From Archaeoglobus sp. (GTDB taxonomy: Archaea; Halobacteriota; Archaeoglobi; Archaeoglobales; Archaeoglobaceae): a stretch of DNA of 59,634 bases. Each line of letters opens with the position of its first letter. Position 1 is the first letter of the stretch. This document shows, one piece after another, positions 46,014 to 51,344 of the stretch. Where the stretch lies: the NCBI RefSeq assembly GCF_017656475.1, contig NZ_JACDNT010000009.1, positions 1-59,634 of the forward strand, written 5' to 3'. Position numbers and translations under genes: made by a program. The notes beneath the pieces are model-generated. The model did not search any database. It saw only the letters and a list, made by a program, of their open reading frames with translations, and was not told the origin of the DNA.

Positions 46014-47099
46014 CTAAATCAGCTCCATTGCCCTCTCAACGACCTCTGCGTCATACTTCCGGTGTACATACCTCGTCTTACCCCTCCTCTTTTCTCCGAA
46101 GGATATTTCAATCAACTTCAGCCTTTCGAGCTTTTCGAGGATGTTGTAGTATTTTCTGTAGCTCATCTTCACCTCGTTGCTCACCTGCTCGTACAGGTCG
46201 CCAGTAGAAATCGTGTCGTTGGAGTATATAATTCTCAGAACAGCCCTCTCCTCACTGTTCAATGCTGTGAGAATTTTGGCGACAAAGGATAAAGACTCTC
46301 CGGCATGTGCAACCTCAACATCCCTCTCCTCAACTTTTCTGCTTCCCCTGCTTTCTGCGTTCACTCCTGCAGCCTTTAGAAGGTATATCCCATACCTAAC
46401 ATCGCTCGCATTGTAAGCAAGCTCAACAACTCTTCTGAAAGCTCTGCTATCAAAAACACCCTCGTAAAACCCGTATTCAACCCTCTTTCTAAGAATTTCC
46501 TTCATCTCCCGGTAGCCGTATGAGGGATAGTGTATCTCCATGTAGTGGAATGACGCACCGACAAAAGGGTCGAGCAGCAGGGGGAATTTGACATCGGTTG
46601 CTGCCGCAACAATACCCACCTTAACCCCATACTCGTCAGGCGCTTTGAGGATTTCATACAGAATCTCGTTCGCGTAGGCTTTGCTGAGGAAGTTTATATC
46701 GTCAAGGACGATTAAAAGAGGCTCGTCAAGGTTGCTCCACACCCTGTCCATCAGAACCGTTTTGCTTATTCCAGATGGCGGGGACTGCTGTCCGAGAACA
46801 TCCTGAAAAATCTTTGAGAAGACCTTGTAGGGCTCTCTGAACCTCGGTATTCGTATGTAGGAGTACAGAATTCCTGCCTCGCTCTCCGCCTCCCTGAGAA
46901 CGTACTTTATTGTCGAAGTTTTTCCCGTTGACGGTGGGCCGAGGCAGAAGGCGTTGATCGGGGATGAGTTGAGCATTGCAGGTCTTATACAGGACACAAG
47001 CTGCCTGATCTGGCTATCCCTGAAAAGCAGCTCGTCCGGAACGTAATCCGGATCGAAGATCTCAGGATTTCTGAATATCGTTTCGTCCCATGAGAGCAT
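46014..47099 (-). CDS. cdc6: Orc1/Cdc6 family replication initiator (second type)
   Basis: AAA+ protein: Walker A GPPSTGKTSTIKYV near residue 55, Walker B LLIVLDDINFLS, sensor-like VGIVAAATDVKF, and a C-terminal winged helix (YRKYYNILEKLERLKLIEISFGEKRRGKTRYVHR). Archaeoglobus has two Orc proteins, and this one lies beside minD and polB2. The frame opens at 47144, but ATG 47099 (MLSWDETIF) is about 25 bp from ATTATACATA on the minus strand. 361 residues. No origin recognition boxes are seen around it, so initiation here is not supported; a regulatory paralogue is possible. Confidence 0.92.
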   Translation of the reverse strand: MLSWDETIFRNPEIFDPDYVPDELLFRDSQIRQLVSCIRPAMLNSSPINAFCLGPPSTGKTSTIKYVLREAESEAGILYSYIRIPRFREPYKVFSKIFQDVLGQQSPPSGISKTVLMDRVWSNLDEPLLIVLDDINFLSKAYANEILYEILKAPDEYGVKVGIVAAATDVKFPLLLDPFVGASFHYMEIHYPSYGYREMKEILRKRVEYGFYEGVFDSRAFRRVVELAYNASDVRYGIYLLKAAGVNAESRGSRKVEERDVEVAHAGESLSFVAKILTALNSEERAVLRIIYSNDTISTGDLYEQVSNEVKMSYRKYYNILEKLERLKLIEISFGEKRRGKTRYVHRKYDAEVVERAMELI

Positions 47100-47119: not shown

Positions 47120-47129
47120 TATGTATAAT
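47120..47129 (-). promoter_or_regulatory. TATA box of cdc6
   Basis: Minus-strand ATTATACATA, centre about 25.5 bp from ATG 47099, predicting a leaderless transcript. Confidence 0.6.
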
Positions 47130-47156
47130 CTTTTTCACTTGCATCCGGGGGTCGAA

Positions 47157-47166
47157 GCTTATATTG
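47157..47166 (+). promoter_or_regulatory. TATA box of the PolB2 cassette
   Basis: GCTTATATTG, centre 25.5 bp before ATG 47187. It places the start of the RecA-like gene at 47187, not the earlier ATG 47121, and drives the whole three-gene unit. Confidence 0.6.
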
Positions 47167-47186
47167 ACTTAGAAGCATTACATTAT

Positions 47187-47693
47187 ATGATAGAGGTACT
47201 TTCGGTTGAGGTGTTTGGGGGGTTTAACGCTGTTGCTGCACCACAAGAGGTATGTCTCGACTTTTTGAACAGATATAGAAGCAGATTTCCGGCATTGTAC
47301 GTCTGTGGGAACAGATCAAAAGTTCTGGATGGTGTCAGGGGGAACTTCGGGGTTAGGAGAGGCTTCACCATACATCAGGTAATAGAGATTCTCCTTAATG
47401 CGTATCAGGACACTGTTTTCATTGAGCATGATGCGATGCTCTTCGAAGACTGCGATTTTCATACTCTCGAAGACTTCGTGATGCTGTTGAGGCAGATAGG
47501 GAGAGATAGAACGGTCGTTTACTTCACCACCAAGAGAGACAGAATCTTCGACTTCATAACGACGCTTGCTGATCGCTACATCCTCGTTGAGGCGGAGGAA
47601 GGTGGTTACTTCATAGCAGATGTTGATGACGAGGGAATAACTCAGCGTTTCTATCCTAAGAGAGCCGGACAGCTGACACTGGAGGTGTTCTGA
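47187..47693 (+). CDS. Degenerate RecA-like protein of the PolB2 cassette
   Basis: 168 residues. The order of strands and the acidic second strand end (QDTVFIEHDAMLFED, Walker B-like) followed by DFVMLLRQIGRDRTVVYFTTKRD and FITTLADRYILVEAEE resembles RecA/KaiC-fold proteins. The Walker A region is not conserved (VEVFGGFNAVAAPQEV), so ATPase activity is probably lost. Start ATG 47187 is leaderless from its own TATA box; the frame extends back to 47121. It heads a unit with a 90-residue protein and PolB2. Published surveys describe an inactivated RecA-family partner of PolB2; identity with it is an inference from fold clues and position. Confidence 0.7.
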   Translation: MIEVLSVEVFGGFNAVAAPQEVCLDFLNRYRSRFPALYVCGNRSKVLDGVRGNFGVRRGFTIHQVIEILLNAYQDTVFIEHDAMLFEDCDFHTLEDFVMLLRQIGRDRTVVYFTTKRDRIFDFITTLADRYILVEAEEGGYFIADVDDEGITQRFYPKRAGQLTLEVF

Positions 47694-47965
47694 TGGGAAG
47701 GAGTATATCAAGCGTAAGAATGGGGGTAAAAAGAATAGCAGAGAGGTGGGAAAGGACTGCCAAGGCGATGAAGAAAGAGGATAGAGTTTACGCCATAAAG
47801 CTCGCCGGCTTGGTGAAGAAGCACAGCAGCGAGGTGTTCTACACCTTCGACGATCCCTTGGAGGCGGCGGTGTTCTCCGTTCTAATTGAGCTCGTGAAGG
47901 AGCTTGATGGGGATGTGGATACTGGACTGCTTACCTTTCAGAAACAGCGTCGATCTCTGGATTAA
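47693..47965 (+). CDS. Small helical protein between RecA-like and PolB2 genes
   Basis: 90 residues, basic N terminus (SISSVRMGVKRIAERWERTAKAMKKEDR) and a helix-rich remainder (AIKLAGLVKKHSSEVFYTFDDPLEAAVFSVLIELVKEL). No recognised domain; it could bind DNA or bridge partners. It starts by a TGATG one-base overlap with the previous gene and its end overlaps polB2 by about 59 bp, so all three are tightly coupled. PolB2 clusters in other archaea also carry small uncharacterised proteins. Confidence 0.72.
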   Translation: MGRSISSVRMGVKRIAERWERTAKAMKKEDRVYAIKLAGLVKKHSSEVFYTFDDPLEAAVFSVLIELVKELDGDVDTGLLTFQKQRRSLD

Positions 47966-49823
47966 GAAGGAGAATGGAAAGGTTGTTAAAAGAAGATTCA
48001 AGTTCGAAAACTACTTTTTTCTGCATTTTCCCGACAGAACTCTTCACGTTGAGCTTTTAGAAGCTCTTGAAACGCGATACAGAGTTGAAGAGTGCACATT
48101 CAAAACGATTTATGGAGAATGCGAGGGATACAGAGTTTACGCCGGAAAAAAGGTTGCAGAGATGATAGAAAGGCAGGCCAAGGATGTGAAACTGTACAAC
48201 GTTGATGTGAGGTTAGAGCAAAAGTTCATGGCTGAAAAGGGGATTTTCCCATGCTCACACATACTCGAAGACGTTTCCGAGAGATTCGAGGTCGATTTCG
48301 ATTTGCCGTTTGACGTTTTAAAGGTGGGTGTGAAGGGGGACGTATTCAAGCCGGAAATTAGGGAGATAAGCATAAACGGGAGGAGAATTAGGAGTAAAGA
48401 GAAAGAACTCATTGAGGAGCTTTCCGGAGTCATTGAGGATCAAAATCCTGACATAATTCTGATGGAAGACGCGGATTTCTGGATGCCGCATATTTGCCTG
48501 AAGGCTGTGAGCAGAACCGGAAAGTTCCGCAGACTCTCTCAGAAAATCTACTGGAGCTACGGGAAAGCAAGGTATAGAAAGCAAGCTCTAATACCTGAGG
48601 GGAGGATTCTCATAGACACGAACTCCTTCAACTTCAGAGAAGGGGGGCTTAAAGGCATTCTCCTCGCCTCAAGAATCTCTGCGATCTCACCAAACCACGC
48701 ATCTCGTGTCACTCCCGGGTCGCTCATTTCCCTCTACGAAGTTTTCGAGGCTTTGATGAGGGGCATAGCCGTGCCCTTCAGAAAGAGCGATGCGGAGAGG
48801 ATGAAGGACTTGGAGGAGCTCAGATTTTCGGACAGGGGAGGGATGATCTTCCAGCCTGAGCCGGGAGTTTATGAGAACGTATGGCAGCTCGACTTCACGT
48901 CGATGTATCCGTCAATAATCGTGAAGTACAACCTCTCTCCAGAGAGCATAGGAAGCAAGCGAAGAGGATTTCTGGCTGAGGTTCTCGAACCTCTTTTAAG
49001 AATGAGGATAAAAACAAAGAGTCTGAAGAAGAAAAACCCCAGATACGCCGGTGTTGACTCAATCCTGAAGTGGATGCTCGTTACGTGCTTTGGCTACACG
49101 GGCTACAGAAATGCCAAGTTCGGTAGAATAGAGGTTCATGAGGAGATAAACAGGATTGGAAGGGAGATTCTGATAAAAATGAAGGAGATTGCAGAGGAAA
49201 TGGGATTTGAGGTTCTGCACGGGATAGTCGACTGTCTGTGGGTTAGAGGGGGCAACATCGACGAGCTGAAGGCGAGGGTCGAGGAAGAGACTGGCCTGCT
49301 TACTGATGTGGAAAAATACGACTGGATAGTCTTTCTTCCAATGAAGGACGGCAGTGGGGCTTACAACCGCTATTACGGCAGGCTTTCCAGCGGAGAAATG
49401 AAGCTCAGAGGTGTCATGGCCAGAAGGCGCGACACTCCAGAATACGTGAGAAGAATGCAGATGGAGTGCTTTGAAGTGATGAAAAAGGCCAGAAGCGTAA
49501 GAGAGCTTCGCGGGCTTTATCCTGAGCTAATGCAGATTTACAGGAAGCACTCTGAAAACATGAGAGGGGCGAGGCCTGAAGAGATGGTAATAAGGAAAGT
49601 TGCAGGAAAAGCAGAGTACGGAAAAAAGCTGCTGGAATCTTCGGCGATTCAAGAGTACAGGAAAGCTGGAATAAGCGTCAAACCGGGGATGGCGATAGAA
49701 TATGTCGTGGTTGATGCAAGAAGAAAGGTTGTGAGTGTGAGAGGGCATTCAGCCTTTGACGTGAAATACTACAGAAAACTACTTGACAAGGCGTGGGAGG
49801 AGGTGAGCTGGTTTTTAAATTAG
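47907..49823 (+). CDS. polB2: Family B DNA polymerase PolB2 with altered motifs
   Basis: About 638 residues. Motif A is standard (LDFTSMYPSII) with its Asp. Motif B reads ILKWMLVTCFGYTGY: the Lys is kept but the N-S-x-Y is lost. Motif C reads HGIVDCLWV where YGDTDSLFV is expected: the first Asp is replaced and the second is kept. Exonuclease motif I (DIE) is missing from LKVGVKGDVF. This is the PolB2 branch, described as partly inactivated; the homologue Dpo2 in Sulfolobales has a reported role in DNA damage tolerance. The frame opens at TTG 47904; AAGGAG at 47897-47902 suits ATG 47907 or 47913. Co-translated with the two upstream genes. Confidence 0.88.
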   Translation: MGMWILDCLPFRNSVDLWIKKENGKVVKRRFKFENYFFLHFPDRTLHVELLEALETRYRVEECTFKTIYGECEGYRVYAGKKVAEMIERQAKDVKLYNVDVRLEQKFMAEKGIFPCSHILEDVSERFEVDFDLPFDVLKVGVKGDVFKPEIREISINGRRIRSKEKELIEELSGVIEDQNPDIILMEDADFWMPHICLKAVSRTGKFRRLSQKIYWSYGKARYRKQALIPEGRILIDTNSFNFREGGLKGILLASRISAISPNHASRVTPGSLISLYEVFEALMRGIAVPFRKSDAERMKDLEELRFSDRGGMIFQPEPGVYENVWQLDFTSMYPSIIVKYNLSPESIGSKRRGFLAEVLEPLLRMRIKTKSLKKKNPRYAGVDSILKWMLVTCFGYTGYRNAKFGRIEVHEEINRIGREILIKMKEIAEEMGFEVLHGIVDCLWVRGGNIDELKARVEEETGLLTDVEKYDWIVFLPMKDGSGAYNRYYGRLSSGEMKLRGVMARRRDTPEYVRRMQMECFEVMKKARSVRELRGLYPELMQIYRKHSENMRGARPEEMVIRKVAGKAEYGKKLLESSAIQEYRKAGISVKPGMAIEYVVVDARRKVVSVRGHSAFDVKYYRKLLDKAWEEVSWFLN

Positions 49824-49876: not shown

Positions 49877-51226
49877 TTACATCCCGAGCATCTTCTCCTC
49901 CCACTTCTTGAGGTAGGCTGAGCTCTGGCTTACGTCGGCGAAAATGCTCGCAGCTCTCTCCACATCATCAAGTTCCACTTTTCCGGAGTTCCTCATCTTG
50001 GCAAACTCGTATGCGGGGGCGAGGAGCTGCACTGCATATCTCAGGCTAGTCTTCTCTCCAATATCGGTGAGCTTCTCCATAGCCTCATCGCTCAGCATCA
50101 TTCCCGATTCAGCAGCCCTTATCTCGATGATCGTTCTGATCTCATCCCTGCTGTATGGCTCGGTTGTGATGATCAGCAGCCTGTCGAGCAGATCGAGTGG
50201 AATGCCGTGTGGGGCGGTGATGTCAGTACCCCTAATCTTCGAAAATCCTCTGTTTGATGCGAGTATTATGATAGGCGCCATCTCCGACTCCATTGCTCTG
50301 TTCATGAATGCAAATAGCTCAATGTCCATAAGGTGGGTCTCATCGATGAACAGAACTCCCGGCACAAGCTCCGCTCTTCCCTCTTCAACAAGCTTCTTTA
50401 CCTGCTCATCCACTGCCTCTCTCACCTCGTTGTCCACCTCTCTACTTGGCGGGGAGAACAGGCTGAAAATGCTCGTCCTTCTCGCATTTGCTTCATCGAG
50501 GTCGTGGAGAGTTACGACATACGTGAACTCCTTCTCCTTCTCTACTTTTCCTGAAGGGACTGGCACGACTTCATCATCGCCAAGATCGTACTTCTTTTTG
50601 GCTTTCTCACTCCTTCCAAGCTTGCTAATCCTTCCGGTCTCCTTGTCGATCACTATAACATCTCCGACCTCTATTCCCTGAGCCATGAACTGCATGGCCA
50701 GTCTTCCTCCAACGCTGAAGGTTCTTTTCTCATCTTTTGTTGCAAGGGTTAGCGTTGCTGATTCGGGAATCTTCTGCGTTGGGTTGTAAGGATTAGGAAC
50801 CATGTTGTAGTCGAGACCTGCCACCTCACCCTCAAGAACCGTTCTCGTTTCCCTTATTCTGACACCAATAGCCTTCCTCATTGCCTGAATGAGTGCTTCA
50901 GTTTTCTTTATCTCCGCACTGTAAAACTCACTCGCTGACACCTGCACGAACGGGATGTCTTTTCCAAGCTCCTTGCTTATTGCCACAGCTATGGCGGTTT
51001 TTCCCGTCCCAGGAGGGCCGGCGATCAGTATTCCCCTACCAGCCATCTTTCCTGATTTTATCAGCCTTACTACGACTCCTGCAGCCTCTCTTGCCTTTTT
51101 CTGGCCAACAAGTCCGTCTGCAACGTCCTTAGCCCTTAAGTTCTCATCCAGTCCCAGACCGCGAATGTGTGAGTGAGCGCTTATCCTCTCAAAAGTTTGA
51201 GCAATCTCTCTAATCTCGCCCGCCAT
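49877..51226 (-). CDS. TIP49/RuvBL-like AAA+ ATPase
   Basis: Archaeal homologue of Pontin/Reptin. Walker A GPPGTGKTAIAV near residue 60, a domain II insertion after about residue 110 (VGVRIRETRTVLEGEVAGLDYNMV), Walker B FIDETHLMDIELFAFMNRAME (DETH in place of the usual DEVH), and sensor ILASNRGFSKIRG. Eukaryotic relatives act in chromatin remodelling and snoRNP assembly; archaeal roles are unknown. The frame opens at 51274, but ATG 51226 (MAGEIREIAQTFE) has GGTGGTGG upstream and a TATA box about 35 bp away. About 449 residues. Confidence 0.94.
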   Translation of the reverse strand: MAGEIREIAQTFERISAHSHIRGLGLDENLRAKDVADGLVGQKKAREAAGVVVRLIKSGKMAGRGILIAGPPGTGKTAIAVAISKELGKDIPFVQVSASEFYSAEIKKTEALIQAMRKAIGVRIRETRTVLEGEVAGLDYNMVPNPYNPTQKIPESATLTLATKDEKRTFSVGGRLAMQFMAQGIEVGDVIVIDKETGRISKLGRSEKAKKKYDLGDDEVVPVPSGKVEKEKEFTYVVTLHDLDEANARRTSIFSLFSPPSREVDNEVREAVDEQVKKLVEEGRAELVPGVLFIDETHLMDIELFAFMNRAMESEMAPIIILASNRGFSKIRGTDITAPHGIPLDLLDRLLIITTEPYSRDEIRTIIEIRAAESGMMLSDEAMEKLTDIGEKTSLRYAVQLLAPAYEFAKMRNSGKVELDDVERAASIFADVSQSSAYLKKWEEKMLGM

Positions 51227-51231
51227 AGCCA

Positions 51232-51247
51232 CCACCAAAATTGGTGG
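51232..51247. repeat. Perfect inverted repeat in the TIP49 leader
   Basis: CCACCAA-AA-TTGGTGG: 7-bp arms with a 2-bp centre. The predicted transcription start (about 26 bp from the TATA centre near 51262) falls inside it, and its left arm adjoins the GGTGGTGG ribosome site. A protein-binding operator is more likely than an RNA hairpin. Confidence 0.5.
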
Positions 51248-51257
51248 AAAAGTAGGA

Positions 51258-51267
51258 CTATATAAAG
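51258..51267 (-). promoter_or_regulatory. TATA box of the TIP49 gene
   Basis: Minus-strand CTTTATATAGT, centre about 35 bp from ATG 51226, leaving a leader of some ten bases that contains the Shine-Dalgarno. Confidence 0.6.
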
Positions 51268-51344
51268 ATTCCACTTTAGATGCGTTGGTGACCTATTGAA
51301 ATGTTGAAGTAGTTTTGCAAGAAGCGTGTTGAAGTCCATTGGAA

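Follow-up and report, generated by a model that had tools for sequence, protein, structure and literature searches.

A putative PolB2 mutasome operon of Archaeoglobus and its conserved promoter element resembling damage-response sites

In many Euryarchaeota, the DNA polymerase PolB2 has been described in an operon together with a degenerate RadA, the small protein arCOG07300 and an orc gene, the components of the operon being arCOG07763/04294/08101, arCOG07300 and PolB2 (Makarova 2014; PMC4104785). The same study raised a role in replication initiation and discussed the prediction that PolB2 is inactivated. The two partner proteins were later named PPB2 and iRadA, modelled by AlphaFold-Multimer in a PolB2-iRadA-PPB2(3) heteropentamer and summarized under the term PolB2 mutasome (Timinskas 2025; PMC11791011). 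For Sulfolobales, the PolB2 representative Dpo2 is reported to be the only polymerase inducible by damage and to promote error-prone tolerance (PMC7390963); it is further reported to serve as an extender during translesion synthesis (PMC8764526). The present analysis concerns an operon of this kind, and the promoter element in front of it, in Archaeoglobus sp. (assembly GCF_017656475.1). Both lie in the whole stretch of DNA that was analyzed, hereafter the window, which comprises the 59,634 nucleotides of contig NZ_JACDNT010000009.1.

Damage-type promoter motifs have been described in two groups of archaea. The hexamers ACTTTC and ATTTTC (ANTTTC) are required for ultraviolet (UV)-inducible promoters in S. 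acidocaldarius (PMC5817253), and ANTTTC is bound by Orc1-2 in S. islandicus (PMC9738581). The motif TTTCACTTTCA precedes the UV-B-induced genes radA1 and top6B of Halobacterium and was also noted for radA of Methanospirillum (Boubriak 2008; PMC2556686). That study covered a few haloarchaeal genes and the Methanospirillum radA, and polB2 is not among the genes named.

The operon of the window consists of three plus-strand genes in the following arrangement:

47187-49823, plus strand: iRadA-PPB2-PolB2 operon, three overlapping open reading frames (ORFs) in the same direction
47187..47693, plus strand: iRadA, 168 amino acids (aa), ATG at 47187 to TGA at 47693; assigned by AlphaFold2, Foldseek, orthologues above the Pfam Rad51 cut-off and alignments A2 and A6
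47670..47690, plus strand: QLTLEVF, a clamp (PCNA)-binding-like motif at the C-terminal end of iRadA; the Shine-Dalgarno-like GGAGGTG of PPB2 (47681-47687) lies within its codons
47693..47965, plus strand: PPB2, an arCOG07300-like small helical partner of 90 aa, ATG at 47693 to TAA at 47965
47907..49823, plus strand: PolB2 family-B DNA polymerase, 638 aa, ATG at 47907 (or 47913) to TAG at 49823; assigned by NF004416
48891..48893, plus strand: motif A aspartate D329 of PolB2 in LDFTSMYPSII, invariant in alignment A3
49224..49232, plus strand: motif C of PolB2, IVD instead of DTD with the first Asp lost, in HGIVDCLW at 49218-49241

The junction between iRadA and PPB2 reads TGATG at 47693, and the PolB2 ORF overlaps PPB2 by about 55 nt. 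The iRadA start at 47187 is preferred over 47121 because a TATA box lies 28 nt upstream and the homologues begin at the same place; the longer ORF from 47121 was ruled out, as it would span the promoter.

The iRadA of the window shows no match to Pfam or NCBIfam and contains no Walker A sequence of the form GxxxxGK[ST]. Its AlphaFold model, built from 12 homologues (predicted local distance difference test, pLDDT, 85.8; predicted template modelling score, pTM, 0.82), matches the structures of RAD51, RecA and KaiC with Foldseek E values of 1e-6 to 1e-5 and a probability of 1.00; BcsE was also matched. Two longer orthologues from other PolB2 operons (L112 and L114; here and below, G, L and C numbers denote genomes, loci and contigs, with G000 for the window's own genome) reach 30.1 and 28.1 bits against Pfam Rad51, above the cut-off of 22. 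Profiles of iRadA searched directly against PDB sequences gave nothing usable. Since such direct profile comparisons are weak or empty, the relation to RecA/Rad51 is settled by fold comparison together with intermediate sequences. iRadA thus has the make-up described for the mutasome, a RadA/Rad51 core that lacks both the N-terminal domain and the ATPase residues, at a weak profile-profile score.

The C-terminal motif of iRadA is clamp-binding-like, as judged from its sequence. Of 35 iRadA sequences, 23 have a Q..[LMI]..[FYW] pattern among their 22 C-terminal residues (shuffled mean 0.3), and the looser Q..[LMI].. is found in 32. This putative clamp motif agrees with the published location, as the clamp motifs of PolB2 mutasomes were found mostly on iRadA and in a fraction of the members (PMC11791011). 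In the window's genus, the LEV codons of the motif (CTGGAGGTG, window 47681-47693) double as a Shine-Dalgarno-like sequence for PPB2. That QLTLEVF is kept merely for this ribosome-binding site was ruled out, as L039 and L041 retain the motif with the Shine-Dalgarno-like sequence moved downstream.

PPB2 begins with MGRSISSVR, which corresponds to the MGRS arm with R3 and R9, and the residues M1, G2, R3, S4, S7 and R9 are invariant across 14 Archaeoglobi sequences. Its model is helical (pLDDT 80). No significant match to PPB2 was found by Foldseek, the sequence profile search returned nothing usable, and the published likeness to sigma factors (PMC11791011) was not reproduced by Foldseek.

The polymerase scores 975.6 bits against the NCBIfam equivalog NF004416 (cut-off 516), and its nearest named PolB2 record is a protein of an Archaeoglobi metagenome-assembled genome with 92% identity. 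Motif A is intact. The first position of motif C is without Asp in all PolB2 listed, and the second Asp is kept in the window. The DRGG loop with D309 corresponds to the D(K/R) loop motif of PolB2, its Asp being invariant in A3, and no conserved DxE was seen in the exonuclease region on reading this alignment. The combination of intact motif A, altered motif C and DRGG loop is the same in Archaeoglobi and in most other Halobacteriota PolB2 examined. A second, ordinary PolB (783 aa, C1) is encoded elsewhere in the genome.

The three genes are conserved together. The PPB2 profile is present in 104 of 393 Halobacteriota genomes, and 40 loci were drawn from the profile-positive genomes of the phylum. 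All 19 non-Archaeoglobi loci in which the three genes were detected show the order iRadA-PPB2-PolB2 on one strand, as do intact Archaeoglobi operons without exception, so the order lies far beyond chance. Within the class, a PolB2 search of 59 genomes revealed about 11 in which the copy is complete or nearly so, and several others with remnants only; the module is therefore patchy and repeatedly lost. Decayed PolB2 genes with split frames, stops or C-terminal remnants were seen in L047 (G013), L049 (G029), L050 (G020), L051 (G057), L052 (G023) and L053 (G025), and G011 holds three PolB2 operons.

An earlier note on this DNA had read the locus as three overlapping plus-strand genes joined by TGATG and run from one TATA box beside cdc6, comprising a RecA/KaiC-like protein with a lost Walker A, a helical protein of 90 residues and a PolB2 with altered motifs. 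The coordinates, models and family scores given here and below agree with this description in each respect, and the synteny check it had proposed returned a conserved set. The profile check of the first gene against the RecA family had a divided outcome: the direct family search was empty and the profile-profile alignment weak, whereas the RecA-fold relation holds by Foldseek and by the orthologues.

Upstream, the operon faces a cdc6 gene. The two start codons are opposed and 87 bases apart, each with a TATA box 28-29 bases before it, which by its sequence is a layout typical of leaderless archaeal promoters. The space between the two TATA boxes is filled exactly by one element:

47132..47156, plus strand: 25-bp element TTTTCACTTGCATCCGGGGGTCGAA, similar to damage-response elements
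47159..47164, plus strand: TATA box TTATAT of the iRadA-PPB2-PolB2 operon, 28 nt before the ATG at 47187
47123..47128, minus strand: TATA box TTATAC of cdc6, 29 nt before the cdc6 ATG at 47099
46014..47099, minus strand: cdc6/orc1 homologue, a second-type Orc of the NF001624 subfamily (453.4 bits, cut-off 354), divergent from the operon

The 25-bp element has a single match in the window and none in 100 shuffles. Copies before the same operon in G001, G002 and G006 are identical or carry one C/T change, the element being conserved in G002 despite drift of iRadA to 69% identity, and it is recognizable in another genus (L039). A second copy occurs in the window's own genome (G000:C12:47166-47190) and four more in G006, with 0 matches for the mirrored control. 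Each of these extra copies is immediately followed by a TATA box and an ORF. Some head operons of two small genes, here called geneA (about 66-82 aa) and geneB (about 90 aa), followed by an AbrB-DUF488 protein or a radical SAM protein of the spore-photoproduct-lyase (SPL) type; others precede a geneB-like protein or an HD-type hydrolase (HD assigned by eye). Neither geneA nor geneB has a Pfam match (L129, at G000:C12:41000-53000, L138, L139 and L038). In G011, a geneA-geneB pair lies between a divergent cdc6 and iRadA-PPB2-PolB2 and forms one operon with the latter, so that the tie of both genes to the mutasome stands without the promoter argument. A short palindrome of a different kind adjoins the iRadA start in L044 and L047, where its arms covary (ATCACAACCAAATGTGAT vs. 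ATTACAACCAATTGTAAT); it is possibly another operator.

Across the phylum, the region upstream of iRadA was readable in 34 operons. ACTTTC[AG]C is present in 22 of them, invariably between -50 and -59 relative to the start codon, and one iRadA promoter has a second copy at -181. The same octamer precedes 3 of 377 other ORFs in these loci and was reached at most 3 times among 34 in 1000 shuffles. As the motif was first noticed in these same promoters, the 22/34 count alone is no independent test; independent support comes from the predefinition of the core in Sulfolobales and from an excess in a genome-wide search. In that search of 197 genomes, the 13-mer ACTTTCRCCCCGC gave 202 matches as opposed to 13 for the mirrored control. 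Seventy of the 202 sites were read, and at 45 of them an ORF of 100 aa or more begins 30-115 bases downstream; about 28 of these 45 directly downstream proteins are repair or replication proteins (counted by reading). They include RadA (4), Hef (6), RPA (5), Orc/Cdc6 (3, all NF001624 like that of the window), DinB (2), Topo VI B (2), radical SAM proteins of the DNA-repair kind (2), RecQ, XPB, a Lhr-type helicase and one iRadA. Separately, a family of small proteins (about 130 aa) was observed behind ACTTTCACCCCGC in four methanogen-type genomes (L180, L191, L207 and L210). Two ACTTTCACCCCGC sites in G184 lie before IS605-type/TnpB-like genes (L174 and L177), a hint that this switch may also be used by mobile elements.

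The core of the Sulfolobales ANTTTC motif equals the ACTTTC core of Halobacteriota, and in the window a cdc6/orc1 gene is adjacent. In Sulfolobales the motif lies at -44 to -39 of the transcription start; the present motif occupies about -50 to -59 counted from the start codon, approximately one helical turn further. The UV-B motif of Halobacterium has the ACTTTCA core in common and is likewise found about 50 bases before the start codons of radA1 and top6B. At the corresponding place, the window reads TTTTTCACTTGCATCCGGGGGT, a candidate site for the adjacent Cdc6; its TTTCAC is in the register of the relatives, and the aligned 8-mer starts at -56.

The Cdc6 of the window exceeds the cut-off for Cdc6_lid and falls below that for the Cdc6_C winged helix. 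The genome's other Orc (G000:C11) belongs to NF001625, has a strong Cdc6_C match and shares 26% identity with it. By sequence, the window's Cdc6 thus appears to be a second-type Orc whose winged helix has diverged, and it is a candidate element-binding protein. Due to this character and the shared promoter region, it is a reasonable, if tentative, guess that it reads the 25-bp element as Orc1-2 does in Sulfolobus.

The operon therefore compares with the PolB2 mutasome in all respects considered: the same three proteins in the same order, the IxD motif C, the D(K/R) loop, the MGR[ST] arm, the clamp motif of iRadA and the orc1/cdc6 neighbour. Each sequence-level defining feature examined (order, MGRS arm, D(K/R) loop, lost catalytic residues and a putatively clamp-binding C-terminus) is present, nothing essential differs, and the window adds a conserved promoter element common to cdc6 and other operons. 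Very probably, the product of the operon is a PolB2 mutasome that serves lesion bypass and would be docked on PCNA via iRadA, if the biochemistry of Sulfolobales is transferable. Polymerase activity, damage induction and the modelled complex are presumed here by analogy with homologues in the literature. DNA damage would activate the operon through its leaderless promoter (47159-47187). PolB2, predicted to be exonuclease-dead and altered in its active site, would bind iRadA with its lost ATPase residues and a PPB2 trimer, the MGRS arm of which may reach into the polymerase cleft. The QxxLxxF at the iRadA C-terminus would dock the complex on the sliding clamp, and this docking would thereby allow primer extension past lesions at the cost of mutations. 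The 25-bp element is the likely binding site of a damage-responsive regulator, plausibly the adjacent second-type Cdc6/Orc, and fairly likely makes the operon damage-responsive. Taken as a whole, a mutasome operon with a damage-type promoter is the best explanation, in which we place good confidence.

Several observations weigh against this account. Alignment of iRadA with four RadA sequences by hhalign is weak (E 0.066), and expression and activity of the operon in this organism are predictions by analogy. The exact ACTTTC is absent from the window's genus, where the first two bases differ at the same position (TTTTTC); the equation of this variant with the damage element consequently relies on position, the TTTCAC core and the shared context. 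The core occurs in 4 of 30 Archaeoglobi radA promoters, none of them in the window's genus. Finally, 2 of 30 NF001624 cdc6 genes have the element upstream, so autoregulation is not general and was dropped as a general property of this subfamily; three NF001624 cdc6 genes in G169 do carry the element upstream.

Other explanations of the locus were weighed. Origin recognition boxes (ORBs) have a dyad-like half and a G run. The module could be replication-linked and, with the adjacent Orc/Cdc6 and an ORB-like element, mark or regulate a replication origin: cdc6 is divergent from the operon, the element has the dyad-like half TTTCACTTG and a G run, and a role in replication initiation had been raised before (PMC4104785). 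This is weakened by the single element copy in the window, where origins usually have several, and by the absence of ORB clusters; a mini-ORB consensus match was not found, and the extreme of the cumulative skew at 49.9 kb is weak and broad. Furthermore, the element keeps a fixed distance to TATA and recurs at unrelated operons, and the cdc6 of the window belongs to another subfamily than the genome's initiator-like Orc. An origin is therefore unlikely. Recurrence itself could also reflect a general or mobile sequence, such as a repeat or transposon end, whose copies spread through duplication and do not reflect shared regulation. In G000 and G006, several copies indeed head paralogous geneA-geneB operons beside transposase-like ORFs, and some 13-mer sites in G184 lie before IS605-type genes. 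However, the copies at PolB2/cdc6, G006:C57 and G006:C15 have only the element and the TATA spacing in common with the others, and the genes behind the element across the phylum are non-homologous repair genes at near-constant spacing, which leaves a mobile origin with a low probability.

As to the polymerase, a motif C that has lost its first Asp and a missing exonuclease motif would fit a catalytically dead PolB2 in a structural or regulatory complex, for example one that clears stalled forks, in line with the inactivation prediction discussed earlier (PMC4104785). Yet the Dpo2 of S. islandicus, with the same kind of loss (IID in motif C), is active and takes part in translesion synthesis (PMC11791011, PMC8764526), and the PolB2 of the window retains both motif A and the remaining Asp. 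A dead enzyme is accordingly improbable.

The preferred reading, a mutasome operon with a damage-type promoter, has a wider extension. An SOS-like regulon may be common to archaea of at least two phyla, with Orc1/Cdc6-type proteins reading it through the ACTTTC-core element. The PolB2 mutasome would be a core member next to radA, RPA, hef, dinB, recQ, xpb and SPL-type radical SAM genes, while geneA/geneB would be further mutasome-linked members. We consider this a serious possibility that falls just short of probable. The position of the element between cdc6 and the mutasome would then mean that regulator and target share one switch. The element would link the mutasome to the classical genes for recombination and repair in Halobacteriota as well as to the Sulfolobales damage switch, and makes the long-open question of a conserved archaeal SOS-like regulon and its reader directly testable in genetically tractable species such as Haloferax or Methanosarcina. 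A literature search largely outside subscription journals found the element connected neither to the PolB2 operon nor to the ANTTTC/Orc1-2 system of Sulfolobales. The cassette is a further instance of the recently described archaeal mutasome, whereas the presence of the element in its promoter appears to be new.

Beyond archaea, E. coli Pol V (UmuC-UmuD'2-RecA) and ImuA-ImuB-DnaE2 likewise combine a lesion-bypass polymerase, a RecA-family protein and a small accessory subunit. Their polymerases, in contrast, are of family Y or C and their accessory proteins non-homologous, which limits the comparison to analogy. Membership in ImuA-ImuB-DnaE2 was rejected, as the polymerase is a family-B enzyme and Y-family models match neither of the two small proteins. 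The earlier note had drawn this comparison for a mutagenic or tolerance module and mentioned prior work that placed PolB2 beside inactivated RecA-family proteins. The analogy stands as one between damage-tolerance modules, with E. coli Pol V as the nearest published analogue; homology does not. The module reading fits homology, gene order and motif loss as well as the Dpo2 literature (PMC7390963, PMC8764526). The interpretation is right in substance but not new, since the module has been published (PMC4104785, PMC11791011).

Two minor observations concern the neighbourhood. A second radA-like gene was noted about 2 kb from an NF001624 cdc6 on the opposite strand in two genera (G003:C38, G018:C4 and G018:C137). 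In the window itself, a TIP49/RuvB-like ATPase gene (49877-51274, minus strand) is convergent to PolB2.

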